Shown piece by piece: positions 9,491 through 44,058 of a stretch of DNA of 64,000 nucleotides. Under the pieces are notes generated by a model. It made no database searches. It saw only the letters and a list, made by a program, of their open reading frames with translations, and was not told where the DNA came from. The translations under genes were made by a program, and so were the position numbers. Position 1 is the first letter of the stretch. The number at the start of each line of letters is the position of its first letter. The DNA comes from Leifsonia sp. 1010 (GTDB taxonomy: Bacteria > Actinomycetota > Actinomycetes > Actinomycetales > Microbacteriaceae). Location of the stretch: assembly GCF_031455295.1 (NCBI RefSeq), contig NZ_JAVDSL010000001.1, positions 1,860,001-1,924,000 of the forward strand. The letters are read 5' to 3'.

Positions 9491-10759
9491 ATGACGGGTA
9501 CAGGTGTAACGGTGGCAGACAAGACGAAACAGACGACGGGCGGCCGTTTGGCCGCGCTGGACGGTCTGCGCGGCATCGCCGCGGTGGTCGTCCTGCTGCA
9601 CCATGCCATGTACACGAACCCGGACTTCCCGGGCGCTCCGGGCACCGGGTCCGCGCCGACCGGATCTGCGATGTGGTGGATCAGCTACACGCCGCTGAAG
9701 CTCGCGACCGCCGGTGTCGAGTCGGTCATCGTCTTCTTCGTGCTCTCCGGCCTGGTGGTCACGCTTCCCGTGATCCGCCACCGCGGTTTCGACTGGGTCG
9801 CCTACTTCCCTCGCCGCGCCGTCCGGCTGCTGGTCCCGGTCATGGCGTCCGTCCTGCTGGCCGCCGTCTGGGTGATGGCCATCCCGCAGGTGTCCACCCA
9901 GCCGAAGGGCACCTGGCTGAGCAGCTCCTCCACGCCGAACTTCAGCTGGGAGTACATCGTCAAGGCCTGGGACCTCCTGGGCGGCGACGGGCAAATCAAC
10001 AACCCGCTGTGGTCGCTCCGCTGGGAGCTGCTGTTCTCGCTCGCCCTGCCGATCTTCGCGGTGGCGGCCCTCGCCGTGCGGAAGTGGTGGATGGGCGCCC
10101 TGGCCGCCGCGTGCGCCTTCACCTACCTGGGCGTGCACGCCGATTCCGGTGCGCTGCAGTACCTGCCGGCGTTCTTCGTCGGCGCGGTCATCGCGGTCCG
10201 CCTCGAGGCGGTGCGCAACGTCGCCGACCGCATCAACACGCACTGGTACCGCCACCCGCTGTGGGCAGCGCTCACCGTGGCCAGCATGCTGCTGCTGATC
10301 GCCCCCTGGCTGGTCGGGCCGAACGTCGGCGAGATCCCCGAGCTCGAGCCGGTGCTGAAGGGACTGGTGCCGCTCGCCGCGGCCGGGCTCGTGGTGGCAG
10401 CGCTCGGCTGGAAGCCGCTCCGCGCCGTGCTCGACACGCGCCCGGTGCAGTTCACCGGGACGATCTCGTTCAGCCTCTACCTCGTGCACGTGCCGATCCT
10501 GATCTTCAGCACCTACCTGTTCGCGGACGAGCCCTGGTACGTGCCTCTGCTCTTCGGCATCCCGGTCGCGGTCGTTGTGGCCGTCGGCTTCACCTGGCTG
10601 ATCGAGAAGCGCAGCCACGGCTGGTCGAAGGCCGTCGGCAACTGGGCGTCCGACCGGTACCGCACCTGGTTCGGCCGTGACGACGAGACCGACGAGCGAG
10701 CGTCGGGGGCGACGGCCGACGAGCGCACTGCGCAGGAGGCGGGTCAGAGGTCGGCGTGA
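9491..10759 (+). CDS. Acyltransferase 3 family membrane protein
   Basis: 422 residues with about ten membrane helices. The N-terminal family signature is clear: LAALDGLRGIAAVVVLLHH with the putative catalytic His, then FFVLSG and a basic FPRRAVRL segment. NPLWSLRWELLF, FTGTISFSLYLVHVP and the hydrophilic C-terminus (about 385-422) are also typical. Such enzymes acetylate or otherwise acylate exported polysaccharide or wall sugars, so this may decorate the glycan of the adjoining locus. The start is uncertain: the ATG at 9491 follows a TACCGT box by nine bases, and GTG codons follow at 9506 and 9512. The last 16 bases overlap the convergent glycosyltransferase gene. Confidence 0.88.
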   Translation: MTGTGVTVADKTKQTTGGRLAALDGLRGIAAVVVLLHHAMYTNPDFPGAPGTGSAPTGSAMWWISYTPLKLATAGVESVIVFFVLSGLVVTLPVIRHRGFDWVAYFPRRAVRLLVPVMASVLLAAVWVMAIPQVSTQPKGTWLSSSSTPNFSWEYIVKAWDLLGGDGQINNPLWSLRWELLFSLALPIFAVAALAVRKWWMGALAAACAFTYLGVHADSGALQYLPAFFVGAVIAVRLEAVRNVADRINTHWYRHPLWAALTVASMLLLIAPWLVGPNVGEIPELEPVLKGLVPLAAAGLVVAALGWKPLRAVLDTRPVQFTGTISFSLYLVHVPILIFSTYLFADEPWYVPLLFGIPVAVVVAVGFTWLIEKRSHGWSKAVGNWASDRYRTWFGRDDETDERASGATADERTAQEAGQRSA

Positions 10760-11892
10760 AGCTGCCAGACCCGCTCGGCGGAGTCACGCCAGCTGAACGC
10801 GCGCGCACGGTCGGAGGCGAGCACCCGGAGACGGGCGCTCAACTCGGCGTCTGACAGCACGCGGCCGATGGCGGCTGCGAGACGCTCGGCATACGGTTCG
10901 TCGTCCTCACCCGGAGCGGGACGCTCGACCAGCACGCTCGCGCCTGCGGCGACCTCGACGAGGGCGGCGTCATCCGAGTGGATGACGGGCAGACCGAACT
11001 TGAATGCCTCCACGATGGGGAGGCCGAACCCTTCGGCGACGCTCGGGTACACGAAGAGCGTCGCACGGTCGAGGGCGACGGCCAGGTCTCCGTCGTCGAG
11101 GCGGCCGAGCGGGCGCACACGATCCTCCGGAAGTCCGGCGGCCGCGGCGACCCCCGTCGCGGAGCTTTCGCCGACGCGGTCGCGTCCCGCGATCAGCAGG
11201 GGAATGCCCTGCGCCTCGGGGCGCGCGATCGCGCGGATCAGGGGCGCGATGCCCTTCCGCGGCTCGACCGTGCCGAGCGTGAACGCGTACCGCTCGGGGA
11301 GATCCAGGCGCGCCGCGCGCTCGTCGGCGTCGGCCGGCAGGCGCAGGGCGGTGGCGGGAGCCCCGCCGATCACGCGGATGCGGTCGCCGAAGTCGAGGTA
11401 CTCGCCGAGCCGGTCGGCGACGGCGTGGGTCGGCACGACGATCGCGTCGGCGTGCTTCCTGGCACGCTTCGCCATCGTCTTCGTCCAGATCGTCGCCGCG
11501 GACCCGAGCGATTCGGGATGCGTCCACGCGAGAGTGTCGTGGATGGTGACCGCGATCTGCTGCGGGGTGTCCAGCTGCACGTGCTTCTTCAGCGGTGCGA
11601 GAAGGGTCGGAGCGTGCAGCATCCCGGGCGGGCCGCCGACCGACAGACCCGACTGCCAGGCCAGGGCCAGCTCCCGCCGGGCGAGCGGCAGGCGGGTGAC
11701 AGCAGCGACACCCGGAAGGCGGTCGCGGACCGCCTGCACCTGCTCGTCGCTCACGTGCGAGACGATCGCCTCGACATAGCAGTCTCGCGGCGCCGTGGCG
11801 ATGAGCTGACGGGTGAGCTCCTCCGTGTACCGGCGCGCGCCGCCGGGCTCGTCTCCGACGAGCTCGTCGACGATCACACGGAGAGTGGTCAT
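10744..11892 (-). CDS. Glycosyltransferase family 4
   Basis: 382 residues with the GT-B layout of family 4 enzymes. The N-terminal acceptor half has VIVDELVGDEPGGARRY. The C-terminal donor half has GTVEPRKGI and the EX7E-type element YPSVAEGFGLPIVEAFKFG. Retaining enzymes of this type use NDP sugars such as GDP-mannose. The ATG at 11892 overlaps the rmlD stop (ATGA), so it is the third gene of an rmlB-rmlD-GT operon; the open frame further upstream is shadow of rmlD. Placement with rhamnose genes suggests work on a rhamnose-containing glycan, but the sugar it transfers cannot be read from sequence. Confidence 0.9.
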   Translation of the reverse strand: MTTLRVIVDELVGDEPGGARRYTEELTRQLIATAPRDCYVEAIVSHVSDEQVQAVRDRLPGVAAVTRLPLARRELALAWQSGLSVGGPPGMLHAPTLLAPLKKHVQLDTPQQIAVTIHDTLAWTHPESLGSAATIWTKTMAKRARKHADAIVVPTHAVADRLGEYLDFGDRIRVIGGAPATALRLPADADERAARLDLPERYAFTLGTVEPRKGIAPLIRAIARPEAQGIPLLIAGRDRVGESSATGVAAAAGLPEDRVRPLGRLDDGDLAVALDRATLFVYPSVAEGFGLPIVEAFKFGLPVIHSDDAALVEVAAGASVLVERPAPGEDDEPYAERLAAAIGRVLSDAELSARLRVLASDRARAFSWRDSAERVWQLHADL

Positions 11893-12737
11893 TCCGCGAA
11901 GAGGCCTTCCGCCGTCGCCGCGGCGAGGGCGTCCTCCCACGGACGCAGGGGAGCGAGGCCGGCACGGGCCCAGCCGTCGTGGCCCAGCACCGAGTACGAG
12001 GGGCGCGGAGCCGGCCGGACGAAGGTCGAGCTGTCGGTGGGCTTCACGCGCTCCGGGTCGAGCCCGGCCTGCGCGAAGACCGCACGGGCGAACCCGTACC
12101 AGCTCGTCTGACCCGAGTTCGTGCCGTGGTACACCCCGGCCGGGGCATCGCTGTCGAGCAGCGCGACGATCTGCGCGGCGAGGTCGCCCGTCCACGTCGG
12201 CTGGCCGAGCTGGTCGTCGACCACGCTGACGCTCTCGTGGCTGCCCGCGAGCTTCACCATCGTCTTGGCGAAGTTCGGGCCGCCCGCGCCGTAGAGCCAG
12301 GCGGTGCGCACGACGAACGTGCCGTCGGGATGCGCCGCGAGCGCGAGCTCCTCGCCCGCGGCCTTCGTGCGGCCGTAGGCGTTGATCGGGTCGCGCGGGG
12401 TGTCTTCCGCGTACGGCTCCGTCGCGTGGCCGTCGAAGACGTAGTCGGTCGAGACCGTCACGAACCGTGCGCCGTTGCGTGCGGCGGCGATCGCGAGGTT
12501 CTCGGTGCCGAGCGCGTTGATGGCGTAGGCGTCGTCCTCGTGCGTCTCGGCGTCGTCGACCTTGGTGTAGGCCGAGGCGTTGACGATCACGTCGTGGCCG
12601 GCGGCGGCCGCGAGCACGGCGTCACGGTCGGTGACGTCGAGGTCGGCACGGGAGAGCGCCGTGACGTCGCGGTCGGCCAGCGCCTTCTGCAGGTCCTGGC
12701 CGAGCATCCCGGCCGCGCCGGCGATGAGGATGCGCAT
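11889..12737 (-). CDS. rmlD: dTDP-4-dehydrorhamnose reductase
   Basis: 282 residues. It carries out the last step of dTDP-L-rhamnose synthesis, reduction of dTDP-4-keto-L-rhamnose with NAD(P)H. The short-chain reductase features are GAAGMLG (7-13), STDYVFDG (96-103), and the catalytic pair in YGRTK (Y121, K125). RmlD-type sequence continues with RTAWLYG and the VVDDQLGQPTWTGDLA region. Its ATG shares one base with the rmlB stop, and its stop overlaps the start of the next glycosyltransferase gene, so the three genes are tightly coupled. Confidence 0.95.
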   Translation of the reverse strand: MRILIAGAAGMLGQDLQKALADRDVTALSRADLDVTDRDAVLAAAAGHDVIVNASAYTKVDDAETHEDDAYAINALGTENLAIAAARNGARFVTVSTDYVFDGHATEPYAEDTPRDPINAYGRTKAAGEELALAAHPDGTFVVRTAWLYGAGGPNFAKTMVKLAGSHESVSVVDDQLGQPTWTGDLAAQIVALLDSDAPAGVYHGTNSGQTSWYGFARAVFAQAGLDPERVKPTDSSTFVRPAPRPSYSVLGHDGWARAGLAPLRPWEDALAAATAEGLFAE

Positions 12738-13726
12738 CAGTTGTCGAGCGCGGCGCGGGCCTTCAGCGGCTCCCACCACGCGCGGTTGTCGCGGTACCAC
12801 TGCACCACATCGGCGAGGCCCTGCTGGAACGGCACCAGCGGCTCGTAGCCCAGCTCGGACTGGATCTTCGAGATGTCGACCGAGTAGCGGAGGTCGTGGC
12901 CGAGCCGGTCGGCGACGCGGTCGACGTACGACCAGTCCTTGCCGGTGGCGTCGAGCAGCAGCTGGGTGAGCTCCTTGTTGGTGAGCTCGGTGCCGCCGCC
13001 GATGTTGTAGATCTCGCCCGCGCGGCCGTTCACGAGCACCATCGCGATGCCGCGGGTGTGGTCGTCGACGTGGAGCCAGTCGCGGATGTTGTTGCCCTCG
13101 CCGTACAGCGGGACGTGCTTGTCGTCGATCAGGTTCGTGACGAACAGCGGGATGACCTTCTCGGGGAAGTGGTACGGCCCGTAGTTGTTGGAGCACCGCG
13201 TGATCGAGAGGTTGAGCCCGTGCGTGCGGAAGTAGCTGCGCGCGAGCAGGTCGCTTCCGGCCTTCGACGCCGAGTACGGCGAGTTGGGCTCGAGCGGGCG
13301 GTCCTCCGCCCACGAGCCCTCGGCGATCGAGCCGTAGACCTCGTCGGTCGAGACGTGCACGAAGCGCTTGAGGTTGTTGCGCAGCGCGGCGTCGAGCAGC
13401 TGCTGCGTGCCGAGGACGTTGGTCTCGACGAAGATGGAGGCGTCGCGCACGGAGCGGTCGACGTGCGACTCCGCCGCGAAGTGGACAACCGCATCCACCG
13501 TGGGGAACAGCTCGTCGAGCAGGCCGCCGTCGCGGATGTCGCCCTTCACGAAGGTGTAGCGAGGCGAGTCGGCCACCGGCGCCAGGTTGGCGAGGTTTCC
13601 GGAGTACGTGAGCGCGTCGAGCACGACCACCTCGGCGCCCTCCAGGCCCGGGTAGGCATCCTGCAGGGTGCGACGGACGAAGTTGGAGCCGATGAAACCG
13701 GCGCCGCCGGTGACGAGAATCTTCAT
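12737..13726 (-). CDS. rmlB: dTDP-glucose 4,6-dehydratase
   Basis: 329 residues. It is the second enzyme of the dTDP-rhamnose pathway, forming the 4-keto-6-deoxy intermediate with bound NAD. The dinucleotide motif GGAGFIGS is at 7-14, the catalytic TDE triad at T127-D128-E129, and the YSASK pair at Y151/K155. NYGPYHFPEKVIPLF and the substrate-binding GEGNNIRDWLHVDDH follow. First gene of a leftward operon with rmlD. A TAGGAT -10 box on the minus strand (13771-13766) is a plausible promoter. Confidence 0.96.
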   Translation of the reverse strand: MKILVTGGAGFIGSNFVRRTLQDAYPGLEGAEVVVLDALTYSGNLANLAPVADSPRYTFVKGDIRDGGLLDELFPTVDAVVHFAAESHVDRSVRDASIFVETNVLGTQQLLDAALRNNLKRFVHVSTDEVYGSIAEGSWAEDRPLEPNSPYSASKAGSDLLARSYFRTHGLNLSITRCSNNYGPYHFPEKVIPLFVTNLIDDKHVPLYGEGNNIRDWLHVDDHTRGIAMVLVNGRAGEIYNIGGGTELTNKELTQLLLDATGKDWSYVDRVADRLGHDLRYSVDISKIQSELGYEPLVPFQQGLADVVQWYRDNRAWWEPLKARAALDN

Positions 13727-13832: not shown

Positions 13833-16800
13833 ATGACCCGCCGCGTCGACCTGATGGACATGCTCGCGCTCTCGCGCGACTTCCTGCGCGACCCCGCGAA
13901 GCGCCAGGCGCTGCGGGCCGCCGCCGCCGCGTATGACGCGCAGCGAGGTGCTGAGAGCGCCCCCGCGCCCGCCGACGTCGTCGAGCAGACGCCGGCCGCT
14001 CCCGTCCGCCCGTCGTCGCCGTATCGCGGGCTGACGCCGTTCTCGGAGTCGTTCCTGCACTGCACCATCGCCGACGCGGACGCCGCGCTCGACCTGGTGC
14101 TGCCCGAGCTGCATCCCGACGGCATCTTCGCCGGGGTGAAGACGGCGCTCGAGTTCGCGGCGGGGCTCGGCCGACGTCTCGGCCTGCCGGTCCGGATCGT
14201 CCTCCTCAAGCCGACGGACCAGGCCGACGCGATCCGCGCGCGCCTCGAAGCGTTCGGGATCGGCGACGCCGCCATCGTCTCCGGCGACGAGATCGACTCC
14301 GCGACGTTCTCGCGGTCCGATCTCTGGGTCGCGACGCACTGGTGGACTGCGCACGCCCTGGATGTCGCCGCGCGCACCGGCCGGATCGACGCGTCCGACG
14401 TCGTGTACCTCATCCAGGACTACGAGCCGGGATTCGTCGGCTGGTCGACGGACTCCGCGGTGGCCGAGTCGACGTACCGCGCTGGCTTCACCCCCGTGGT
14501 GAACTCCACGCCGGTCGCCGCCTACCTGGCCCGCAGCGGAGCGCCCGAGGTGGACCCGGACTTCGTGTTCGCGCCCTCCTTCGACCTCGACGCCCTGCGG
14601 GAGACGGCCGAGGCGCGTCGCCGGGCGGACACGGTGCGCATCTTCTTCTACGGTCGCACCGCGCGTCCGCGCAACATGTACGGGCTGGGGCTCGCGGCCC
14701 TGCGGTACGCCTCGCGCCGGCTGGCCGCCGAGGGCATCCCGGCGTCGTTCGTCATGGCCGGTGAGGACGGCCCTGATGTCGACCTCGACGGCGCCGTGCT
14801 GGTCAACCGCGGCGTGCTGACGCGCGACGACTACTTCGCCCTGCTCTCGGAGGTGGATGTCGGCCTGAGCCTGCAGGCCAGCCCGCACCCGAGCCACCCG
14901 CCGTTCGACCTGGCGATCTCGGGGGCCGTCTCGGTGACCAACGACGTGGACGGCGCTCGCGGCGGCCTCCACGAGCGCCTGCGCGCGGTCGAGGCGCGAC
15001 CGGACGTGCTCGGGGAGGCGCTCGTCGCCGCCGCCCGGCAGGCGCTCACCGAGGATCCGGGGGAGTGGGCGGCGCCCGCCGCCCTCGGCCGCCCCTTCGC
15101 CGAGGTCGTCGACGCTGTCGCCGCGGCGCTCGGCGATCGTCTCGGCCGAAGCGCCCGGCCCGTCGATGTCGCGGCGCCGGTGCCTGCGCGCGAGTCCGTC
15201 CCGTACAGGCCGGCGGCCGATTCCGGCGATCGGACCGACGGTTCGACCACCCTGACCGTCGACCCGAGCCGGGGAGTCGGCGACTCGTGGGCGTCGGAGG
15301 CGAACCGCCTGCTCTCCAGGGTGTCCACGCGCCACGCGCTCCTCCTCGACCCCGCCGTGCGGCTGGACGACGACGCGGCCGCCGAACTGCTGCGCGTCGC
15401 CGTCTCGACCGGTGCCGCGTTCGTCCAGCCCGTGATCGTGCGGGAGTCGGGGACCGTCGTGGACGCCGGGGCCGTCTTCGCCTCCCGCGGCGCCCCGCCC
15501 CTCCGGCTGTTCGAAGGGCACCTCCCCGCCGACCTGCCGGCGGGGGAGTCGCTCCCCGCTCGCGTCGTCGTCTCCCCAGCGGTCCTCGTCGACCTCGCCG
15601 TGTTCGACGGATTCGCCCCCGGAGAGCCGGCGGACGTCGCGCTCGCCCGGGCCAGCGTCGGGAGCGGCGCCGTCGTCGCCCTGCGCGCACGCGCCGAGGT
15701 CGCCGACGCCCACAGCCGCCGGCTGGTCGCCTCGCCTTCCAGCCGCACGGCCTGGAGCGGGCTGCCGAGCGAGAGCCTGGTCGAGCCCACCCCGTCGGCG
15801 GTGTACGGGCACGCCGGGCTCGCCCTGGTCGGACTGGCGGGCGATCCGGTGCCGGACCTGCGCCGCCGCATCGTGCGCAACGACTTCGACGACGTGGCGC
15901 GTCGCGCCCGGCCGATCCTGGTGCGCGAGGCCGAGCAGGGCCCGGCCGACGCATCCCGCGCGCTGCGCTGGTCGATCCGCAGCGGCGCTCCGCTCGGCCC
16001 GGAGGGGCGGGTCTGGGGCGACACCTACTTCGCGGAGGACCTCGCCGCGGCCCTGCGCGAGCGCGGCCAGCAGGTCGTCATCGACACCCGGGAGTCGATG
16101 GTGCGGCCGGACTCCGACCACCTCGACGACGTGTCGATCGCGCTGCGCGGGCTCTACCGCCTGCCGACCAATCCGGCGGCCGTCAACATCCTCTGGGTCA
16201 TCAGCCACCCCGAGCTCGTGACGCTCGACGAGATCGAGAGCTACGACCTGGTCTTCGCGGCCGGGCCGCGGTGGGCGGAGCGGATGGATGCGCTGTCGGC
16301 GGTCCCCGTGCGTCCTCTGCTGCAGGCCACCTCGCCGGCACGCTTCAGTCCTGAGAGGTCGGATCCGGCGCTGGCCTCCGACGTGCTCTTCGTCGGGAAG
16401 ACGCGCAACGTGTTCCGTCCCGTCGTGCGCGACGCCGTCGAGGCGGGAGCCGACCTGGCGGTGTACGGCGACGGATGGGAGCGGTTCATCGACCCGGCGC
16501 ACATCCGGGCCGAGTTCCTGGACAACGACCGGGCCTCCGCCGCCTACGCCAGCGCACGGATCGTGCTCAACGACCACTGGCACGACATGGCGGCGGAGGG
16601 ATTCCTCTCCAACCGGCTGTTCGACGCGGTCGCAAGCGGGGCGCGCGTCGTCACGGACCCGATCGACGGTCTCGAGATCTTCGGAGGTGCGGCCCGCGCC
16701 TACGCCTCGGTGGACGAGCTGCGCGAACTGATCAGCTCGGAGGCCGGCTGGCCCGACGGGCAGGCGATGGCGGCCATCGTCGAGAGCATCCGGCAGCAGC

Positions 16801-16916
16801 ACTCGTTCGGCGCCCGCGCGGACGTCCTGATCGAGGCCGCGCGCGAGACGGCGCGGCTGCTCAGGAGGCCCTTGCTAGACTCCTCGGGTGCAAATCCGCG
16901 AGCTCTCCATCCCTGA
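13833..16916 (+). CDS. Large two-domain glycosyltransferase (WsaF-like plus CgeB-like)
   Basis: 1027 residues. The N-terminal part (about 60-420) resembles WsaF-type rhamnosyltransferases: VYLIQDYEPGF, FFYGRTARPRNMYGLG and DVGLSLQASPHPSHPPFD. A middle segment (about 470-680) is not recognised; it resembles a GT2-like remnant without obvious catalytic residues. The C-terminal part (about 710-1000) has the layout of CgeB/Glyco_trans_1_2 proteins: VLFVGKTRN, YGDGWERF, VLNDHWHDMAAEGFLSNRLF. A TTGGAG ribosome site precedes the ATG. The final 29 bases overlap rmlC. It is probably a bifunctional rhamnan-assembly enzyme; the linkages are unknown. Confidence 0.8.
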   Translation: MTRRVDLMDMLALSRDFLRDPAKRQALRAAAAAYDAQRGAESAPAPADVVEQTPAAPVRPSSPYRGLTPFSESFLHCTIADADAALDLVLPELHPDGIFAGVKTALEFAAGLGRRLGLPVRIVLLKPTDQADAIRARLEAFGIGDAAIVSGDEIDSATFSRSDLWVATHWWTAHALDVAARTGRIDASDVVYLIQDYEPGFVGWSTDSAVAESTYRAGFTPVVNSTPVAAYLARSGAPEVDPDFVFAPSFDLDALRETAEARRRADTVRIFFYGRTARPRNMYGLGLAALRYASRRLAAEGIPASFVMAGEDGPDVDLDGAVLVNRGVLTRDDYFALLSEVDVGLSLQASPHPSHPPFDLAISGAVSVTNDVDGARGGLHERLRAVEARPDVLGEALVAAARQALTEDPGEWAAPAALGRPFAEVVDAVAAALGDRLGRSARPVDVAAPVPARESVPYRPAADSGDRTDGSTTLTVDPSRGVGDSWASEANRLLSRVSTRHALLLDPAVRLDDDAAAELLRVAVSTGAAFVQPVIVRESGTVVDAGAVFASRGAPPLRLFEGHLPADLPAGESLPARVVVSPAVLVDLAVFDGFAPGEPADVALARASVGSGAVVALRARAEVADAHSRRLVASPSSRTAWSGLPSESLVEPTPSAVYGHAGLALVGLAGDPVPDLRRRIVRNDFDDVARRARPILVREAEQGPADASRALRWSIRSGAPLGPEGRVWGDTYFAEDLAAALRERGQQVVIDTRESMVRPDSDHLDDVSIALRGLYRLPTNPAAVNILWVISHPELVTLDEIESYDLVFAAGPRWAERMDALSAVPVRPLLQATSPARFSPERSDPALASDVLFVGKTRNVFRPVVRDAVEAGADLAVYGDGWERFIDPAHIRAEFLDNDRASAAYASARIVLNDHWHDMAAEGFLSNRLFDAVASGARVVTDPIDGLEIFGGAARAYASVDELRELISSEAGWPDGQAMAAIVESIRQQHSFGARADVLIEAARETARLLRRPLLDSSGANPRALHP
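16876..16890 (+). promoter_or_regulatory. Leaderless promoter of rmlC inside the upstream gene
   Basis: TAGACT (16876-16881) lies six bases before the GTG at 16888 and inside the 3' coding end of the large glycosyltransferase gene. No ribosome-binding site is visible, which fits a leaderless rmlC-rmlA transcript. Confidence 0.55.
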
Positions 16917-17511: not shown

Positions 17512-17514
17512 CCC

Positions 17515-19806: not shown

Positions 19807-19822
19807 CAGTCGGTCGTTCCTC

Positions 19823-20680: not shown

Positions 20681-20694
20681 CTCAGCGCAGGGCC

Positions 20695-21933: not shown

Positions 21934-21943
21934 ACCGTGCTTC

Positions 21944-24062: not shown

Positions 24063-24070
24063 GGGTTTCC

Positions 24071-26107: not shown

Positions 26108-26127
26108 GGGCGCTCCTTCCTGGCCGC

Positions 26128-26952: not shown

Positions 26953-26955
26953 CCG

Positions 26956-27192
26956 TCAGCCCCGGCGCGCGAGCATGCGGAGCGGCTTGGTGATGCGCCA
27001 CGACATCGACGAGCGCATGGCGGTGACCTGCTTCCTGTAGCGCTCCGCCTGCTCCTCGGCCGCCGTCACCTGACGCCGGAGGTCGTCGATCGTCGGCGCG
27101 TTGGACGCGAGCTCGGCGCGCAGCGCGCGGATCTCGCGCCGGGCGGCGGCCAGCTCGTCGTCCGTGGATGGACGGGAAGGGGTGGAAGCCAT
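26956..27192 (-). CDS. Small coiled-coil protein with SWRxTxPLR tail
   Basis: 78 residues, ATG start preceded by a GAGAGAA purine stretch. Residues 10-60 form a heptad-rich charged helix. The C-terminus reads SSMSWRITKPLRMLARRG, the same tail that ends the glycosyltransferase at 18433-19806 (SSSSWRVTAPLRLAG). Usually this coiled coil plus tail is the end of a glycosyltransferase; here it stands alone at the head of the operon. It has no catalytic domain. A docking or scaffold role at the membrane for the glycan assembly enzymes is an inference. It could also be the remnant of a lost transferase gene. Confidence 0.72.
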   Translation of the reverse strand: MASTPSRPSTDDELAAARREIRALRAELASNAPTIDDLRRQVTAAEEQAERYRKQVTAMRSSMSWRITKPLRMLARRG

Positions 27193-32943: not shown

Positions 32944-32966
32944 CCGAGCGCTGCGCTCCGAGTCAG
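32940..32966. terminator. Bidirectional hairpin between convergent genes
   Basis: Outer arms CTGAC/GTCAG (32940-32944, 32962-32966) enclose an inner GAGCG/CGCTC stem. It overlaps the stop of the leftward gene and just follows the rightward one. No T run, so termination strength is uncertain. Confidence 0.4.
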
Positions 32967-34501: not shown

Positions 34502-34545
34502 GATGGAGAACTTTCGGTCGCCCCGTTGTCGGTTGGGGACGCACC

Positions 34546-34551
34546 ATTCTA
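34546..34551 (-). promoter_or_regulatory. -10 box of DUF2142 copy 1
   Basis: TAGAAT on the minus strand, 44 bases before the start at 34501. A small stem (TCAGG/CCTGA at 34556-34560 and 34572-34576) lies between it and the stop of the upstream DUF2142 gene and may act as a terminator for that gene. Confidence 0.45.
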
Positions 34552-34577
34552 CCAATCAGGCCGACGATCGTCCTGAC

Positions 34578-36122: not shown

Positions 36123-36248
36123 AGGTCTCCTTGGGATGTCGGACTCGGCTGACCCGCCGATGCCAGGTCCGATGGTGCGCGGCGGTGCCCCACCGGAAGG
36201 ACCAAGTGGACATTACCAGTGGGACCCCGCGCGTCCCGTGGACGCTGC

Positions 36249-37838
36249 TCAGGCAGTCCCGGCCGGCGTGAGCGGGCGCGGGTCGCGCGGCCACACGGAC
36301 GCCGTGAGGAGGACACCACTCGCCACGAGCACCACCCCCATGAGTCCGAGCCAGAGCAGGTTCCCGCCGGGAGGCGTCCAGGGCGCTCCGCCGAGAAGGA
36401 ACAGCTTGAGCGTTCCGTTCCCGCCGACGGAGTAGCGTCGCAGCGTCGCCTCGAAGGCCCACCACTGGGCGCCGACGCCGACGGCAGCGACCAGGAGGAT
36501 CAACCGTCGGAACGTCGTCGCCCCGATCAACTCGGCGCGCGGCCCGAGAAGAGCGGCAGCACCGACGACGAGGCAGAGGAAGAGCGGGAGGTTGTAGCGG
36601 CCCTGCCAGATGAGGCCGCCACCGTGGATGTAGACGGCCTGCACGATCGCGGGGAACAGCAGGAAGGCGGCGACCAGGATCGCCAGCGCGAGCAGGCGCC
36701 GCCCCCGGAGCACGAGGAGCGCGCTTACGACGAGTGCGGCGATTCCGGCCCCGTAGACGTAGATCACCACGTCGGGGGCGGGGGTGTCCAGCCAGCCGAA
36801 CAGACCGATGAGACCCTGCCCGTAACCCACGGTTCCGGTGAACACGCGAAGGAATCCGGTCACCGGTGATGCGCCGACTCCCGGGAAGTGGAGCGCCTCC
36901 TCCGGCTTCGCGATCGCATTGGCCAGCGAATTGGATCCCAGGGTCCAGGCGAGGGCGCCGACAACGAACAGTGCCGAGACGGCAATGGCGACGAGCGTCG
37001 CCCGGCGGCGCACCAGTGCGAGGAATCTGGTGCGAGGGATCAGAACGAGCGGCGCTCCGATGGCGACGAGCAGCCACAGAGGAGACAGCCCCCGGGCGTT
37101 GACGCCGACGGCGATACCCGCGGCCACGACGACGAGGTCCGAGCGGAGGCGCAGCGACCGGACATCCAGAACGATCGAGAGCATCGCCACGAAGACGGCG
37201 AGGGTCGCTGCGGCCTCGAGGGTGTTGGGGTTCACCGTGCCGCCGAGGAACAGCATCATCGGGGTGATCGCCAGGGCGTAGGACAACATCGCCAGGCGCC
37301 GCTGGGGGAGGGTCGTGGTGATCGCGAAGGCGAGCGCGAGGAAGAGCGCCGTGAGGAGGGCGCTGACCGCTCGCATCGCGTAGATGCCACCGGTGTCGTG
37401 GATGAGGAGGGTGGGCCACCCGACGGCCAGGTAGTAGAGGGGGTTGTACAGGCCGGCGGAGGTGGTCGACCGGACGTCCGCATCCGGATCGGCCGGTTCG
37501 GCGACACCGCAGTCGGCATCGACGGCGGGGTTGAAGGCGAAGCACGTGACCGCCTGCGACCGCGCGATATACGCCGGCACGGTGACGATGTTGCCCGTCG
37601 ACGAGGCGGGGCCGACCCACTCGCCACGGACGACACTGGCCGCGCGGACGATGTGCGCGGGCTCGTCCGGGGAGCCGGAGATCGGCGTGGCGAAGCCCCA
37701 GCAGAGGCACAGCGCCGTGAGCAGGGCCCAGGAGACGAGGAAGGCCCGGACCGGGAATGCCGGACGCGGGGCGGTGGCTGTTTCGTCGTTCACAGGGTTC
37801 GTCTCATCGGCGCCGACAGATCGCTGCAGGACCGTCAT
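36249..37838 (-). CDS. DUF2142 membrane protein (copy 3)
   Basis: 529 residues with about eleven helices. It shows GSPDEPAHIVRAASVVRG, GGTVNPNTLEAAATL, GGLIWQGRYNLPLFL and TPPGGNLLW, the same set as its two neighbours. A TATGGT -10 box at 37876-37871 lies just upstream, so each of the three copies may have its own promoter. The first 25 residues are polar and cytoplasmic. The three copies differ enough to expect different sugar acceptors or donors. Confidence 0.83.
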   Translation of the reverse strand: MTVLQRSVGADETNPVNDETATAPRPAFPVRAFLVSWALLTALCLCWGFATPISGSPDEPAHIVRAASVVRGEWVGPASSTGNIVTVPAYIARSQAVTCFAFNPAVDADCGVAEPADPDADVRSTTSAGLYNPLYYLAVGWPTLLIHDTGGIYAMRAVSALLTALFLALAFAITTTLPQRRLAMLSYALAITPMMLFLGGTVNPNTLEAAATLAVFVAMLSIVLDVRSLRLRSDLVVVAAGIAVGVNARGLSPLWLLVAIGAPLVLIPRTRFLALVRRRATLVAIAVSALFVVGALAWTLGSNSLANAIAKPEEALHFPGVGASPVTGFLRVFTGTVGYGQGLIGLFGWLDTPAPDVVIYVYGAGIAALVVSALLVLRGRRLLALAILVAAFLLFPAIVQAVYIHGGGLIWQGRYNLPLFLCLVVGAAALLGPRAELIGATTFRRLILLVAAVGVGAQWWAFEATLRRYSVGGNGTLKLFLLGGAPWTPPGGNLLWLGLMGVVLVASGVLLTASVWPRDPRPLTPAGTA

Positions 37839-37923: not shown

Positions 37924-39246
37924 TTACCGAACGCGCATCCCGACCAGGTGCACGACGAGACCGACGGCGGGACCGGCGGCCAGCGCGAGCGCCGCTCTCT
38001 CGGGCAGGGGCAGCGGAAGGAACAGAAGAGCCAGAGTGACCACCGAGGCCGCCACCCACCCGATCGCATAGAGCCCGTGAAGGTTCCGCGCGAGAACGGC
38101 GGAGCCGCTCACAAAGAGTGCCCCGATCAGCCCGGACGAAGCGATGAGCGCGACCAGGACCCCCGACCCGAGGTCGAACTCCGGCCCGAACACGAACCGC
38201 ATGACCGGCAGCCCCCAGAGCCACGCCGCCAGGCACAGCACCGCGATCACGGCCGCGATGGCGCCGAGCAGCACGGCCACGGTCCTTCCCGTGTTCTCCG
38301 GGTGGTGCGAGAAGCGGTTCACCAGGAAACTGGACAGCGCCGTCAACGGGACGAGGATGGGCGCGCGCGTCAGCGTGATCGCCAACACGAGCGAGCCGAG
38401 GTCGGCGTGGTTGTCGGGGCCCGCGAAGAACGAGAGTACGAGCGGGAAGCCGTTGATCAGCACCGCGGTCGCGGATGCCGCGAGCATCGTGCGGCCGGTG
38501 TTCGCGACCAGGGCGCCCAATCCGAGCGAGACGCGCGCATTCTGGACGAGCGCCCGAGGCGCGGTCAGGAACACGATCGCGAGCGACACCGGGAACGGCA
38601 GGATCACGGCGATGGCGAGCGGGACGATGTCATCCGTGACGCCGAGCACCGCGACGACCCCGATGACACGCAGGATGCCGTCGAGCGCGACGATCGCGGC
38701 CAGCTGCCGCCACATCCCCGCCCCCGCCATGACTCCGGATGCAGCCGCCACCAGGCAGTTCAGCGCCGCCCCGGCAGCCACGAACCACGCGAGCCCCGCG
38801 TTCGCCGCGCCCAGGCTGGGAACCGCCCACAGCAGGCTCGTGAGGAGAACGACGACGCCCACGGTCACGGCGGCGACGGAGGCGAAAGCCCAGAGAGAGG
38901 TCGTCCGGGGGGAGGCGGCCGGTGCATCCGGAACCGCTGAGGGCTCCGCCACAGCGCGCGCGGTCTGTGCGGTCGCCCGCGTCGACTCCTGCTGCAGACC
39001 GAACAGAATCCCCACGACGAGGAAGAGCGCCGACCAGAAGACGGAGAAGACGCCGTAGCCGGCAGCGCCCACCTCCGTGTACACCCGCCACGTCACGACA
39101 TAGCCCGCAACACCTGCAATCGCGGTCGCTCCGAGGATCAGAACGACGGACGAACGGGCCGATCGAGGAGCCGCCGGTTCCTCGAGATCCGGGATGGGCT
39201 CGTTCAGCGGTTCGAAAGCGGTGATGGGTGGCTCCCCGTGACGCAT
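37924..39246 (-). CDS. MOP-type polysaccharide flippase-like membrane protein
   Basis: 440 residues, with about twelve hydrophobic segments between residues 33 and 440. The opening helix pattern (residues 33-65, ending AAGYGVFSVFWS) and NRFSHHPENTGR after helix 8 resemble Wzx/MOP polysaccharide flippases. The protein would turn lipid-linked repeat units across the membrane. The ATG at 39246 is taken because the open frame further upstream is shadow of the divergent glycosyltransferase gene. No strong ribosome site is present. The same locus also has an ABC exporter. Confidence 0.75.
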   Translation of the reverse strand: MRHGEPPITAFEPLNEPIPDLEEPAAPRSARSSVVLILGATAIAGVAGYVVTWRVYTEVGAAGYGVFSVFWSALFLVVGILFGLQQESTRATAQTARAVAEPSAVPDAPAASPRTTSLWAFASVAAVTVGVVVLLTSLLWAVPSLGAANAGLAWFVAAGAALNCLVAAASGVMAGAGMWRQLAAIVALDGILRVIGVVAVLGVTDDIVPLAIAVILPFPVSLAIVFLTAPRALVQNARVSLGLGALVANTGRTMLAASATAVLINGFPLVLSFFAGPDNHADLGSLVLAITLTRAPILVPLTALSSFLVNRFSHHPENTGRTVAVLLGAIAAVIAVLCLAAWLWGLPVMRFVFGPEFDLGSGVLVALIASSGLIGALFVSGSAVLARNLHGLYAIGWVAASVVTLALLFLPLPLPERAALALAAGPAVGLVVHLVGMRVR

Positions 39247-39306
39247 GAAAGGATGGACGGCGACCGCGGCGCGCGGCACGCTTACCCTACGACGAAAGTC
39301 AGACGA

Positions 39307-40194
39307 GTGACGATCGACATCATGATGCCGTTCTACGGCGACCCGGACCTGTTCCGTGCCGCAGTGGAGAGCGTCTTGGCGCAGACCGACCCTGACTGGC
39401 GTCTGGTCGTCGTCGACGACGTGTACCCCGACAGGGAGCCCGGCGAGTGGGTCGCCTCCCTGAGCGACCCGCGTGTCGAGTACGTCCGCAACGAGGCGAA
39501 CCTCGGCGTGAACGGCAACTTCTCGAAATGCGTCCGGCTGGTCGAGGCGGACTACTTCGTGCTGATGGGATGCGACGACCTGATGGAGCCCGGCTACGTG
39601 GCGTCCATGCGCACGGCCATCGCGGAGCATCCCGACGCCTCGTACCTTCAGCCGGGGGTGACGGTCATCGGCGACGACGGCCTCCCCGCCCTCCCGCTCG
39701 CCGACCGCGTGAAGACCTGGTATCGGCCGGACAAGAGCGATCCACTGGTCATGACCGGTCAAGACCTCGCCGTGAGCCTCCTGCGCGGCAACTGGACCTA
39801 CTTCCCCTCGATCTGCTGGCGCAGGGAGGCGGTGGACCGACACGGATTCAACGGGTCCTTCGACGTCGTGCTCGACCTCGCGCTGCAACTCGACATCGTG
39901 CTCGATGGAGGCGACCTGGTTCTGCTGCCCGAGCGCACGTTCCGTTACCGTCGCCACGAGGGGAGCGTCTCCTCCTGGACGGCGCTGGACGGAACGCGCT
40001 TCGAGGAGGAGCGCGCCTTCTTCCTCGAGACCAAGCGGCGGCTCCGGGCCCGCGGGTGGACGCGGGCCGCGCGCGTCGCGTCGGCGCACCTGTCGAGCCG
40101 GCTCAACGCCGCTACTCGGCTCCCCGCGGCCGTGTCCAAGCGCGACGGCGCAGGGGTCCGCTCCCTGCTCGGTCACGTCCTGCGCGGGTGGTGA
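39307..40194 (+). CDS. Glycosyltransferase family 2
   Basis: 295 residues. MMPFYGDPDLFRAAVESVLA, VVVDDVYPDREP, NLGVNGNFSKCV and the VLMGCDDLMEPGYV metal site show a GT-A fold family 2 enzyme. RYRRHEGSVSSW near residue 220 is a conserved acceptor-side segment. The GTG at 39307 begins the family alignment; the frame is open to 39238, but those residues are unlike GT2. A TACCCT box at 39283-39288 could give a short leader of about 12 bases. It is divergent from the flippase gene. Confidence 0.85.
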   Translation: MTIDIMMPFYGDPDLFRAAVESVLAQTDPDWRLVVVDDVYPDREPGEWVASLSDPRVEYVRNEANLGVNGNFSKCVRLVEADYFVLMGCDDLMEPGYVASMRTAIAEHPDASYLQPGVTVIGDDGLPALPLADRVKTWYRPDKSDPLVMTGQDLAVSLLRGNWTYFPSICWRREAVDRHGFNGSFDVVLDLALQLDIVLDGGDLVLLPERTFRYRRHEGSVSSWTALDGTRFEEERAFFLETKRRLRARGWTRAARVASAHLSSRLNAATRLPAAVSKRDGAGVRSLLGHVLRGW

Positions 40195-40246
40195 GGGCCT
40201 CGCCTTCGCCGCTTCCGGACACCCCCGACTGCTAGAATCCCTGATC

Positions 40247-40984
40247 ATGCCCACCTCGCTCGCACAGACGCTGATCGTCGTGCCCGCCTTCAACGAGGAG
40301 GCCTCCGTCGGCGCCGTCGTCCACGAGATCGCCGAGAAGCTGCCCGGCGTGAGCGTCCTGGTCGTCGATGACGGCTCGGCCGACACCACCAGCGTCGTCG
40401 CGGCCGAGGCGGGCGCCGAGGTCGCCCGGCTTCCCTTCAACATGGGCGTCGGCGGCGCGATGCGCTTCGGCTTCAAGTACGCGCTGGAACACGGCTACAG
40501 CAACGTCATCCAGATCGACGCGGACGGCCAGCACGACCCGGGCAACGTGCCCGCTCTGCTCGCGGCGCTCGAGAACGCGGACCTGGCGATCGGCGCCCGC
40601 TTCGCCGGCGCAGGCGACTACACCGTCCGCGGCCCGCGCAAGTGGGCGATGCGGATGCTGTCGCGCACGCTGAGCCGTACGGCAGGGACGACGCTCAGCG
40701 ACACCACCTCCGGATTCAAGGCGAGCGGTCCGCGCGCCGTCGCCCTGTTCGCCCGCAACTACCCCGCGGAGTACCTCGGCGACACCATCGAGGCGCTCGT
40801 GATCGCGGCCCGCGCCGGCTGCCGCATCGTGCAGGTCCCGGTGATCATGCGGCCGCGTGCCGCGGGCGTCCCGTCGCACAACCCGGTCAAGGCTGCGACC
40901 TACCTCGGCCGCGCCTTCCTCGCTCTCGGTTTCGCCCTGTTCCGCCCGATCGCCCCCGCCGAGAGGCAGCTGAACGCGTCGTGA
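40247..40984 (+). CDS. Polyprenyl-phosphate sugar synthase (DPM1-like GT2)
   Basis: 245 residues. VVPAFNEEASVGAVVHEI, VVDDGSADTT, NMGVGGAMRFGFKYA, QIDADGQHDPGNVP and the SDTTSGFKAS segment match dolichol-phosphate mannose synthase-like enzymes, which load a sugar from an NDP donor onto polyprenyl phosphate for use outside the membrane. There is no membrane domain of its own; the next gene probably supplies one. TAGAAT (40233-40238) eight bases before the ATG indicates a leaderless message. The product could feed the DUF2142 GT-C-like proteins. Confidence 0.88.
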   Translation: MPTSLAQTLIVVPAFNEEASVGAVVHEIAEKLPGVSVLVVDDGSADTTSVVAAEAGAEVARLPFNMGVGGAMRFGFKYALEHGYSNVIQIDADGQHDPGNVPALLAALENADLAIGARFAGAGDYTVRGPRKWAMRMLSRTLSRTAGTTLSDTTSGFKASGPRAVALFARNYPAEYLGDTIEALVIAARAGCRIVQVPVIMRPRAAGVPSHNPVKAATYLGRAFLALGFALFRPIAPAERQLNAS

Positions 40985-41382
40985 GTCTCACCGCCTACAT
41001 CCTCGGCATCCTCGCCGCACTGCTCACCCTGGGTGTCGTCATCGAGATGATGCGCCGCAAGCGGATGCGCGAACGGCACGCCATCTGGTGGCTGCTCGCC
41101 GGCACGCTGGCGCTCATCATCGGCATCTTCCCGGGCATCCTGAACTGGACGGCCGAACTCCTGGGTGTCGGCGTCGGAACCAACCTCGTGTTCTTCGTCA
41201 GCATCGCTGTGCTGTTCCTGGTCTGCATCCAGGCGAGCGCCGAGCTCACCACCCTCGAGGACAAGACCCGGTCGCTCGCCGAGCAGACGGTGCTGCTGCA
41301 GCTGCGCGTCAAAGAGCTCGAGCGCCGGCTCGCCGCCGACGACGGCCGCGCCTCGGACGCGGGCGCGCCTCCCGCGGCCTGA
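40981..41382 (+). CDS. DUF2304 membrane protein, partner of the polyprenyl-phosphate sugar synthase
   Basis: 133 residues, GTG start overlapping the stop of the synthase gene (GTGA). Three membrane helices (about 4-22, 35-55 and 65-83) are followed by a coiled coil (about 85-120). The family DUF2304 is regularly coupled to DPM1-like synthases; in mycobacteria the synthase Rv3631 has a similar small membrane partner, Rv3632. It probably anchors or stimulates the synthase. Confidence 0.82.
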   Translation: MSLTAYILGILAALLTLGVVIEMMRRKRMRERHAIWWLLAGTLALIIGIFPGILNWTAELLGVGVGTNLVFFVSIAVLFLVCIQASAELTTLEDKTRSLAEQTVLLQLRVKELERRLAADDGRASDAGAPPAA

Positions 41383-41415
41383 CCATCGAGCCGGAGCTGC
41401 GCACGCCCTGCGGGC

Positions 41416-42705
41416 TCAGCTCGCGTCGCGGTGCGGCAGCCGAAGCCGCCAGCTCATCCCCTGCGACGCCTTCACCGTGCAGATGACGAGCACCATCCAG
41501 CCGGACTCCACCAGGATCGAGCTCTCGAACACGCTCGTGACCAGCAGCGCGACGAGCACGAGCGGGGCCCAGGCGTAGACGACGCTGCGGCGGTTGGAGG
41601 CCAGCAGCCAGGAGCGGCTGAACGCCAGCGCGATCAGGGCGACGAAGAGCAGCAGGCCGATGACGCCGACCTGGAGGTACACGTCGAGGTACGCGTTCAG
41701 TCCGTCGGAGTGATAGACCCCGGTGTTCGCCTGGATGGCCGTGAACGGGTAGAGGTCCGTCGGCCAGGCGCCGATCCATCCCCACCCGACCGTCTGCTGC
41801 ACCGGGATCAGCTGCCAGATCTGGATCCACAGCTGATAGCGCACCTGGAAGTCGGAGCGCGCGTTGAGCAGGTCGATCACGCGCGTGCGGTAGATGTAGG
41901 CGGTCACGAGCGCTGCGACGGTGAGGATCGCGAGTCCCCACTGGAAGTACGGGCGCTGGTTCGCCGGGGCCTTCCGCAGCAGGTAGAGGGCGAGGGTGGC
42001 GAGTCCGACGACCACCGAGACCGCCGCGATGACGGGGGAGTGGGCGAGCAGGATGCAGAGGCCGGCGAGCGTGATGGAGTACGCCGCGACGGGCGGCCGC
42101 ACCGATCGGGTGCGGAGCTCGACGAGGAACGTCACGAACGCGATCAGGGCGACGATGCTGAGCTGGTTGCGGGTGCCGAACAGCCCCTGGATCGGGCCGC
42201 CGAGGCCGATGTTGCCCTGGATGCCGAGGAAGCGGATCGGCGCATCCAGCAGCAGTCCGCTCAGCACCTCCAGCGCCAGCGACAGGGTGAGCAGGAATCG
42301 CAGGGCGTCGCCGACGACGCGGACGATCTGGATGGCGTCGCGCACCAGCGCGATGTACACGGCGATGAAGGCGAAGATCAGCTGGTACACCACCCCGGTG
42401 AGCGTCGCCCACTGGTACTGGCTCCACAGGATGGAGGCCGCACACCATCCGACGAACAGCAGCGCAGAGATGGGCAGCAGGCCGTGCCACTCGATCAGCC
42501 GCCACTGCGCCGCGAACGAGAGGGCCGCGAGGACCACCAGCACGGCGAGGGCGCCGATCAGCCCCGGCCAGCCGATCAGCCCGCGGATGGCGTGCGTCGA
42601 GAACCCGGTGATGACCGCCAGCAGGGCGAGCGTCGAAGTGAAACGGGCGGAACCGAGGAACTCGATGACCGCGGGCGGCACCAGGGTTCGACGGGGCGTT
42701 GCCAT
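41416..42705 (-). CDS. O-antigen ligase/polymerase-like membrane protein (copy 1)
   Basis: 429 residues, about ten to eleven membrane helices. The signature is the long outer loop near residues 270-350 with FQVRYQLWIQIWQLIP, GWGWIGAWP and HSDGLNAYLDVYLQVG, matching Wzy_C/WaaL proteins that join glycans using polyprenyl diphosphate donors. It could polymerise repeat units or ligate finished chains; sequence alone does not decide. The ATG at 42705 is six bases behind TAGTCT, so a leaderless start is likely. A GTG at 42711 is an alternative. It is paralogous to the next gene. Confidence 0.84.
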   Translation of the reverse strand: MATPRRTLVPPAVIEFLGSARFTSTLALLAVITGFSTHAIRGLIGWPGLIGALAVLVVLAALSFAAQWRLIEWHGLLPISALLFVGWCAASILWSQYQWATLTGVVYQLIFAFIAVYIALVRDAIQIVRVVGDALRFLLTLSLALEVLSGLLLDAPIRFLGIQGNIGLGGPIQGLFGTRNQLSIVALIAFVTFLVELRTRSVRPPVAAYSITLAGLCILLAHSPVIAAVSVVVGLATLALYLLRKAPANQRPYFQWGLAILTVAALVTAYIYRTRVIDLLNARSDFQVRYQLWIQIWQLIPVQQTVGWGWIGAWPTDLYPFTAIQANTGVYHSDGLNAYLDVYLQVGVIGLLLFVALIALAFSRSWLLASNRRSVVYAWAPLVLVALLVTSVFESSILVESGWMVLVICTVKASQGMSWRLRLPHRDAS

Positions 42706-42711
42706 GCTCAC

Positions 42712-42717
42712 AGACTA
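42712..42717 (-). promoter_or_regulatory. -10 box formed partly by the upstream stop codon
   Basis: TAGTCT on the minus strand. Its first three bases are the TAG stop of the ligase-like gene at 42715-44058, and its 3' end is six bases from the ATG of the next gene. Confidence 0.5.
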
Positions 42718-44058
42718 CGGGGCCGTCGTGTTCGCGGACCGCTTGGTGGCCACCGAGAGCGCCACGAGGAGCGCCCAGCCGCCTTCGATCAGGATGCGGC
42801 TCTCGGCGAAGCTCTGAGCGATCAGGGCGCCGAGGAGCAGCAGCGGCAGCAGGGTGACCGCGCGGTACGGCTGGTCGTCGACGATCGTGGAGCGGGGGCG
42901 GTCGACGGCGAGGAACCAGGCGCGGCCGAACGTCGTGAGCACGAGCAGGATGAAGACGACGAGGCCGACGATCCCGAGTTGCAGCCACACGTCGAGCCAC
43001 GCGTTGTGCGCCTGCAGGTATTCGACGCCGTTGCGGGTGGCGAGGCCGTCGAAGGGCTTCACCCACGGCGCCCAGTAGCTGACCCATCCCCAGCCGAAGG
43101 CCGGGCGTTCCTGCGCGAGGTGCGTGACAGCCGCCCAGATGTCGAGGCGCCCGGTGAGGTCCTCGCTCTTGCCGAACAGGGCGGGGATGCGCGAGGAGAA
43201 CAGCGAGACGCCCACGATCACGGCCGCCACCACGACGATCGCCACCAGGTAGACGGGACCCCGTCGCTCAGCGCCGGCACGGCGGCCCCACAGCGCGAAC
43301 GCCAGCACGACGGCGGTGACGAGCGCGGCCGCGGTGACCGTCGCCGAGCGGGTGAGCGCGAGGGTCAGCACCGCCACGATCAGCCAGCCCAGCGCCGAGC
43401 CGTGTCGCGTGGTCCGGTCGGCGACCTGGATGGCGAACACCACGATCGCCAGCAGCGCGATCATGGCCAGCAGGTTGCTGTTGCCCACGATGCCCTGGAT
43501 CGGTCCGCCGTGGAACAGCAGGTCGCGGCTCCAGAAGAAGGCCTGGGGGAGCTTCCCCTCCGGCACTGTGTAGACCGGCGTGAGCGGAAGCACCGGCTGC
43601 CGGACGAAGAGGGCGACGACCAGCTCGAAGACCAGCGAGAGACCCAGGATCCAGCGGAACGCGTTGCCGAGAGCGCTGAGCAGGCCGGGCCACCCCAGGC
43701 GCAGTCCGAGGAAGACCCCGCCGAGTGCCGTGACGAGCGTCGACAGGACTCCGAGAGCGCTCGCCCCCGGGTACGCCGACCATGCGATCGACGCGATCGC
43801 CAGCACCAGGAACAGCAGCAGCGTCTTCGGCGTGGTCCTCCAGCGGAAGCGGGGGCGCGAGCTCACGATGAGCACCGCGCTGACGACGGCGAGCACTCCG
43901 GCCAGGACGAAGTACCCCGGCCAGCTGATCGTGTTGCGCCAGAAGTCGCCGGCGAACAGGGTGAACAGCACGAGCGCGGCGAACGCGTTCTCCGCCGTGC
44001 CGGTCGCGGTGCGCGCGACGGCGATGCGGGCGGGGAGCGTGGCGCGGGGCGATGTCAC
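42715..44058 (-). CDS. O-antigen ligase/polymerase-like membrane protein (copy 2)
   Basis: 447 residues with about eleven membrane helices. The Wzy_C-type outer loop includes LTGRLDIWAAVTHLAQERP, GWGWVSYWAPW, and the HNAWLDVWLQLG segment with the conserved His. It shares its layout with copy 1, indicating duplication. A GTG start follows TATCCT (44070-44065) by six bases, so the mRNA is probably leaderless. One copy may be the polymerase and the other the ligase of the pathway. Confidence 0.84.
   Translation of the reverse strand: MTSPRATLPARIAVARTATGTAENAFAALVLFTLFAGDFWRNTISWPGYFVLAGVLAVVSAVLIVSSRPRFRWRTTPKTLLLFLVLAIASIAWSAYPGASALGVLSTLVTALGGVFLGLRLGWPGLLSALGNAFRWILGLSLVFELVVALFVRQPVLPLTPVYTVPEGKLPQAFFWSRDLLFHGGPIQGIVGNSNLLAMIALLAIVVFAIQVADRTTRHGSALGWLIVAVLTLALTRSATVTAAALVTAVVLAFALWGRRAGAERRGPVYLVAIVVVAAVIVGVSLFSSRIPALFGKSEDLTGRLDIWAAVTHLAQERPAFGWGWVSYWAPWVKPFDGLATRNGVEYLQAHNAWLDVWLQLGIVGLVVFILLVLTTFGRAWFLAVDRPRSTIVDDQPYRAVTLLPLLLLGALIAQSFAESRILIEGGWALLVALSVATKRSANTTAP

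Follow-up and report, generated by a model that had tools for sequence, protein, structure and literature searches.

A purE-manA slot for variable surface-polysaccharide genes in Leifsonia and other Microbacteriaceae

Results

Genes of the locus

We analysed a 64-kb stretch (the window; G000:C1:1860001-1924000) of the 3.88-Mb genome of Leifsonia sp. 1010, in which 55 genes (g1-g55) were called with our own codon-usage caller and protein families were assigned by Pfam and NCBIfam profile scans. Between purE and manA the window carries a large group of glycan genes, whose outer members are constant throughout the genus whereas the middle part is variable. This slot is probably occupied by interchangeable gene cassettes that specify a cell-wall polysaccharide containing rhamnose. 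Its genes and their neighbours are, in window positions:

5606-9371, GtrA-like gene (below the cut-off), purK, LCP glycopolymer transferase and purE; constant left flank (NCBIfam)
7490-8848 (-), LCP glycopolymer transferase; left flank
8859-9371 (-), purE; left flank
9512-13726, g11 Acyl_transf_3 (+), g12 GT4 glycosyltransferase (-), g13 rmlD (-) and g14 rmlB (-); constant (Pfam, NCBIfam)
13833-16916 (+), g15, candidate WsaF-like two-domain rhamnosyltransferase (Pfam WsaF_N, WsaF_C, Glyco_trans_1_2); opens the variable segment
16888-18384 (+), g16 rmlC (below the NCBIfam cut-off) and g17 rmlA; in all loci
18433-20680 (-), g18 GT4 and g19 GT2 glycosyltransferases (Pfam); g19 family in 27/27 loci
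20695-22846 (-), g20 Wzt (ABC ATPase plus Wzt_C) and g21 Wzm permease (Pfam; NCBIfam below equivalog cut-offs)
22941-27192 (-), g22 GT2, g23 RgpF+WbsX fusion, g24 RgpF N-terminal part and g25 coiled coil (weak matches only)
27425-29422 (+), g26, apparently secreted protein; no family above cut-off
29495-32943 (+), g27 GT2+GT4 fusion and g28 GT2 (Pfam)
32963-37838 (-), g29, g30 and g31, DUF2142, candidate GT-C-type membrane glycosyltransferases (Pfam)
37924-41382, g32 (about 11 hydrophobic stretches, no family), g33 GT2, g34 GT2 and g35 DUF2304
41416-44058 (-), g36 (below the Pfam cut-off) and g37, Wzy_C (O-antigen ligase/polymerase family) membrane proteins; constant
44102-48605, manA, acyl-CoA dehydrogenase, galE and WhiB; constant right flank (Pfam/NCBIfam)

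The dTDP-rhamnose genes rmlABCD and an RgpF-type enzyme (PF05045) are present according to Pfam and NCBIfam, and the locus encodes an export system (Wzm, Wzt_C) together with several glycosyltransferase families. Judging by these families, g20-g21 would export the finished polymer. The g34 protein resembles polyprenyl-phosphate sugar synthases, below the cut-off. We do not claim g32 as a Wzx flippase, as its roughly 11 hydrophobic stretches match no family above cut-off. GC content, considered as an island marker, has no clear step along the window, the window contains no tRNA gene, and no mobile-element family was found among g11-g40 in the Pfam scans.

A sequence-only reading of the window had named the genes on both sides, and the profile scans bear out purK, LCP and purE as well as an accD-type carboxyltransferase (below the model cut-off), birA, a bPH_2 protein and the GtrA-like gene on the left, and manA, acyl-CoA dehydrogenase, galE, WhiB, a manB-type mutase and ahcY on the right. 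Its DUF3499 gene on the right was not recovered: g45 (53419-53778) has no family in the Pfam and NCBIfam scans, which did not cover g46. At least 24 glycan genes had been counted in 9,491-44,058. We find 23 with fitting families (g36 below cut-off), and 24-26 when g26, g32 (a membrane protein without family) and the DUF2304 gene g35 are counted as well.

Borders and variable content

The genus comparison comprised 28 species with one genome each, so that the variation described is variation between species. In all 28 genomes purE and manA border the variable part, always on the same contig, and they lie 33-52 kb apart in 27 of them and 134 kb apart in G003 (G003:C1:463634-597813). We searched the purE-manA intervals of the 27 relatives with all window genes, in the case of G003 at both interval ends only. 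This alignment of the genus, which the sequence-only reading had proposed, revealed conserved flank proteins around an interior whose gene content is not conserved. Protein identity to the window ranges across the genus from 86 to 99% for g8, 83 to 99% for g10, 74 to 96% for g12, 95 to 100% for g14, 76 to 99% for g36 and 85 to 99% for g39. The genes g12, g14, g36 and g37 were found in 27/27 relatives; the exceptions in the flanks are g11, which was not found in G027, and g13, which is just 28% identical in G015.

The interior was compared over the rmlB-to-g36 interval of the 27 complete loci (50% identity, 70% coverage; G003 left out). The 18-36 genes called per interval fall into 188 families, of which 100 are confined to one locus and only three, rmlC, rmlA and g19, are common to all 27. 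The genes rmlC and rmlA (16.9-18.4 kb) thus lie inside the variable part, yet they are present in all 28 genomes. At the other extreme, g23 and g24 have a convincing match in G021 only. A match covering more than 50% of g15 exists in two of the 27 relatives, and in the 27 loci its family occurs otherwise in G021 only, with a weaker match in G011. In the search with the window genes, g18 is overcounted outside the window, because many of its matches hit the GT4 half of g27 relatives.

Nucleotide comparison and homologue searches place the variable part at about 13.73-41.4 kb of the window. The sister species G010 matches the window at about 90% nucleotide identity up to 13.73 kb; the match is lost at 13.75-16.75 kb, does not exceed about 89% up to 41.25 kb and recovers to about 90% from 41.5 kb. 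Therefore, the constant flanks take in 9.5-13.7 and 41.4-44.06 kb, and the exchanged part includes rmlC/rmlA; rmlC is 84% identical to its G010 counterpart, compared with 100% for rmlB. The pattern of constant flanks and a variable middle, as the sequence-only reading had it, is confirmed across the 28 species, with narrower borders: of its span of 9.49-44.06 kb (34.6 kb), about 13.73-41.4 kb is indeed variable, whereas its outermost 4.2 kb (left) and 2.6 kb (right) are constant. Among the genes of the G010 island is one for an 821-residue GH25-family protein (L008:4799-7261).

No full set of the same genes recurs in all relatives. The nearest species, G021, comes closest: it keeps g15-g28 in the same order, and identity to the window is mostly 91-97% per kb. 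The region at 33.0-36.1 kb (g29, g30) has no counterpart there, and identity drops to 72-88% at 36.25-40.25 kb (g31-g33, so that g32 and g33 lie within the diverged block) before it returns to 91-97% as far as 42.5 kb. In this one pair of genomes, 33.0-40.25 kb is the only portion of 13.7-41.4 kb that is replaced or strongly diverged. Since the breaks against G010 lie at 13.7 and 41.4 kb and those against G021 at 33.0 and 40.25 kb, two nested replacements can be seen, and the inner of these covers the putative side-chain genes. The idea that G021 had lost g29 and g30 and retained an empty gap was rejected: within these 1.4 kb there is a different open frame for a membrane protein, missed in the gene calls; it has no Pfam family and is 59% identical to a G018 protein.

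Several rearrangements were observed in the flanks. LCP and purE (7490-9371) are inverted relative to purK in 8 of the 28 genus genomes, including that of the window; the co-directed order is found in the other 20 and in all 12 inspected genomes of other genera. In the genus, manA and the acyl-CoA dehydrogenase gene lie inverted as a pair compared with the eight sites in other genera where both were seen. The relative direction of purE and manA was therefore rejected as a mark of the locus, because two separate two-gene inversions confuse it. In G021 an extra acyltransferase paralogue (42% identical to g11; oriented 10897-12084) is located between g11 and g12, and the window has none.

The slot across the family

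To the genus we added a family sample of 149 further genomes, in 142 of which both purE and manA were matched and for 140 of which manA places were listed (lower-scoring second manA matches left out). The two genes share a contig in 116 genomes, two of them from the window's genus, and lie on different contigs in 24. In the 116 genomes their spacing is 25-80 kb in 91, 10-25 kb in 4, 2-7 kb in 13 and larger in 8. All 13 genomes with a short slot have at most 2.0 Mb. Two sites, in G085 and G153, read purK-purE-LCP, then g36-g37 and then manA (in G153 also g39), without an island. The slot address between LCP/purE/rmlBD and the Wzy_C pair/manA is kept in most sampled family genomes. Constant flanks with a variable middle are thus supported by direct comparison within the genus and by the purE-manA spacing across the family.

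DUF2142 genes are concentrated in the slot, which makes up about 1.1% of the sequence: of 60 matches in the genus, 57 fall inside it, and these come from 27 of the 28 genomes. A fourth DUF2142 gene of the window genome lies about 41 kb beyond manA (G000:C1:1946340-1947449), and G021 has a similarly placed match.

Probable exchange between lineages

We compared a tree of 12 flank proteins with a tree of Wzm plus Wzt and subjected each alignment to approximately unbiased (AU) tests against the clades of the other. The Wzm/Wzt tests leave out G015, which has a long branch, and genomes lacking either gene; the clade {G003,G027} was skipped. The two trees conflict. The Wzm/Wzt alignment rejects four of the five flank clades tested and recovers the fifth, and the flank alignment rejects all four Wzm/Wzt clades tested.

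Similar cassettes are found in other genera. In G089 the slot contains g16-g28 together with g31-g35; identity to the window is 73/74% for Wzt/Wzm and 63% for g23, whereas g36-g38 reach just 50-57%. The Wzt and Wzm of the sister species G010 are only 54 and 49% identical. The g23 gene occurs in 9 of 150 family genomes (the window's included) and in 8 of 85 genera; it lies between purE and manA in eight of the nine carriers and on another contig in the ninth (G161). Comparison of 16 named loci out of 80 found showed g19-g21, g23, g24, g26 and g27 together in loci of Herbiconiux, Glaciihabitans tibetensis and an Aeromicrobium metagenome-assembled genome; in the Zimmermannella loci L094 and L099 the manA/WhiB side adjoins the cassette. 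These comparisons indicate that large blocks have been replaced between sharp borders and that cassettes and flanks have conflicting histories.

g26, a lysozyme-fold candidate with a changing C-terminus

Inspection of g26 by eye suggested a signal peptide and, in the C-terminal part (28250-29419), about four repeats of ~97 amino acids. In between lies an N-terminal domain (N-domain) of ~240 amino acids (residues ~30-275; 27512-28249). The N-domain has no Pfam, NCBIfam or PHROG family, none of 23 members matches a Pfam lysozyme-fold enzyme family at E<=10, and a PDB sequence search yielded no relative, only chance-level matches. The structural matches listed for its model include LytB and further hydrolases of the lysozyme fold, at ~10% identity. 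The candidate catalytic glutamate, E101, which may correspond to E585 of LytB, is invariant in 23/23 and 12/12 alignment rows.

The N-domain is present in the slot of all 28 genus genomes (38 copies) and once elsewhere in each of them. It was found in 139 of 150 family genomes, with a family name lacking in the libraries searched. The extra copy in the window genome is a single-domain protein (L184:6513-7370, on G000:C2), whose neighbours we take to be FKBP-type lipoprotein, dxr, rseP and ispG genes by resemblance. Four small genomes (G040, G121, G107 and G169) have a g26-type N-domain some 0.7 kb away from purE; manA is far away in G040 and G121 and was not found in G169.

The C-termini in the genus are CWB2, LGFP or unnamed. 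Among 37 proteins compared the N-domain is homologous, while the C-termini form three groups that share no similarity at E<1e-10. All three type A relatives scanned (the g26 of the window is not of this type) have three CWB2 (PF04122) stretches each. The C-terminal type is associated with the similarity of Wzt, Wzm and g19 (0/2000 shuffles each) and not with that of rmlC, manA or g12; the shuffles ignore kinship, and G003 was left out. Among the matches listed, g23 and the window-type g26 C-terminus at E<=1e-42, a cut-off set post hoc, go together in 8/9 and 8/9. At E<=1e-20, g23 is present in 8 of 24 listed genomes with that C-terminus.

The DUF2142 proteins

The AlphaFold model of g31 (pLDDT 84) has its best structural matches in GT-C enzymes, namely ArnT (1.2e-4), ALG9, AglB, PMT and the EmbA/B complex. 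All six matches at E<=0.001 are GT-C proteins, with TM-scores of only 0.36-0.42 and root mean square deviations of 11-14 Å. The model thus predicts a GT-C fold for g31. GT-C enzymes have a catalytic acidic motif in the first outer loop; in g31 the candidate for it is D58, invariant in 21/21 rows. A PDB sequence search returned no DUF2142 relative, only chance-level matches. A study of Curtobacterium mentions 32 loci with enzymes of this kind (PMC9862828).

Discussion

Taken together, we consider it probable, at roughly 0.75, that throughout the family the slot houses cassettes that can be exchanged and that encode the synthesis of a cell-wall polysaccharide containing rhamnose, and that they work as follows. 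RmlABCD would make dTDP-rhamnose, from which the cytosolic transferases g15 (WsaF-like), g18, g19, g22, g23-g24 (RgpF/WbsX), g27 and g28 would build the backbone. Wzm/Wzt (g20-g21) would export this backbone, with Wzt_C reading the chain. Outside the cell, the DUF2142 GT-C-type proteins g29-g31 may add side groups from polyprenyl-linked sugars supplied by g34 with g35 and perhaps g32, and the LCP enzyme encoded in the flank would link the chain to peptidoglycan. The cassettes of the genus also carry g26, an apparently secreted protein with a candidate lysozyme-fold domain and a C-terminal part that differs in kind between loci; it would be a wall hydrolase, kept at the wall by an anchor suited to the polymer that its cassette encodes.

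The differences between loci could instead have arisen by lineage-specific loss and fast divergence of a larger ancestral locus, without any exchange. Loss, or never having gained the genes, does happen, as the contracted slots of 2-7 kb in 13 small family genomes (<=2.0 Mb) show. As a general explanation it is very improbable, however, because the Wzt/Wzm of the window are closer to those of another genus (G089) than to those of the sister species G010, the AU tests reject a common history of Wzm/Wzt and flanks, and identity shifts abruptly at two borders beside flanks that stay at ~90%. The polymer itself might be only loosely held, as an exopolysaccharide, or be attached to protein like an S-layer glycan, and not be bound to peptidoglycan: WsaF, after which the g15 domains are named, has been described in the assembly of S-layer glycans (PMC3898925). 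We regard this as unlikely, as an LCP glycopolymer transferase gene adjoins the slot, and does so as well in the seven short or contracted sites that were retrieved, and rhamnan is reported from some Curtobacterium walls (PMC9862828).

With respect to g26, it is conceivable that the cassettes carry their own lysozyme-fold wall hydrolase with an anchor that recognises the polymer of the same cassette, so that exchange would swap the coat together with a matching remodelling enzyme; the copy outside the slot would then do coat-independent work. We put this forward tentatively, at less than even odds. A competing account, which may well apply though it too falls short of an even chance, holds that the C-terminal types match the export type merely because neighbouring genes travel together, the anchor having no polymer specificity. 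Any gene within the cassette would show such an association, the g26 N-domain does so too, and g23 is missing from 16 of the 24 listed family genomes that match the window's g26 C-terminus at E<=1e-20. Mere co-travel does not readily account for an N-domain that stays homologous in 37 proteins while the C-termini split into three groups without similarity at E<1e-10. Two of the kinds are, moreover, named families, LGFP and CWB2 ('cell wall binding domain 2'), and for CWB2 a C. difficile study reports binding to a wall polysaccharide (PMC4973711). It is also conceivable, though less likely than not, that g26 serves at the surface as an adhesin or a structural protein, the lysozyme fold being no more than an old scaffold; its C-terminal parts are large, E101 alone is an invariant acidic residue over distant relatives, and the hydrolase activity is a prediction from the model.

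The purE/LCP-manA slot is a fixed address at which Microbacteriaceae keep and, as it appears, trade surface-polymer genes. It offers a ready typing locus and may be a source of phage-receptor variation. The g26-type domain, the partner half of which changes with the polymer genes, points to a candidate wall enzyme that is co-inherited with, and possibly matched to, a polysaccharide.

Comparison with known systems

Loci with exchangeable surface polysaccharide genes are a well-known class; a family-wide address and a co-exchanged, putatively lysozyme-fold protein with a changing anchor were not found in a limited literature search. The rgp/cwps loci of Streptococcus thermophilus and (Pseudo)lactococcus have a rhamnan backbone part and a side-chain part, a division also proposed here for the slot. 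In S. thermophilus rgp, these two parts occur in varying combinations, and it has been suggested that GT-C-type proteins attach the side chains (PMC9746298); Pseudolactococcus DUF2142 proteins are proposed to act as the WpsJ transferase (attachment) or the WpsI polymerase (PMC12599335). Unlike those loci, the one described here occupies an actinobacterial slot, purE/LCP-manA, and encodes WsaF-like and RgpF/WbsX enzymes; its cassettes are common to several genera at one site, and every locus in the genus has a putatively lysozyme-fold protein with a changing anchor.

O-antigen and capsule loci are bordered by fixed genes, e.g. galF-gnd. The slot shares with them constant borders, a variable middle and Wzm/Wzt or Wzy logic. 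It differs from them in serving a Gram-positive wall, with predicted LCP attachment, and in the placement of rmlB/rmlD on the constant side and of rmlC/rmlA in the exchanged part.

LytB and the Atl glucosaminidases, which carry wall-binding modules, belong to GH73. Like these enzymes, g26 would combine a lysozyme-type fold, as its model predicts, with a C-terminal part for which some relatives have a named wall-binding family. In contrast to them, it lacks a Pfam lysozyme-fold match, has only ~10% identity and is encoded inside polysaccharide cassettes. The three CWB2 stretches of the type A g26 relatives recall the CWB2 proteins and PSII locus of C. difficile, where surface proteins are held by three CWB2 motifs in tandem that bind a wall polysaccharide (PMC4973711). 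That study names one anchor motif and one polymer, whereas in the purE-manA slot the kind of putative anchor varies with the cassette.

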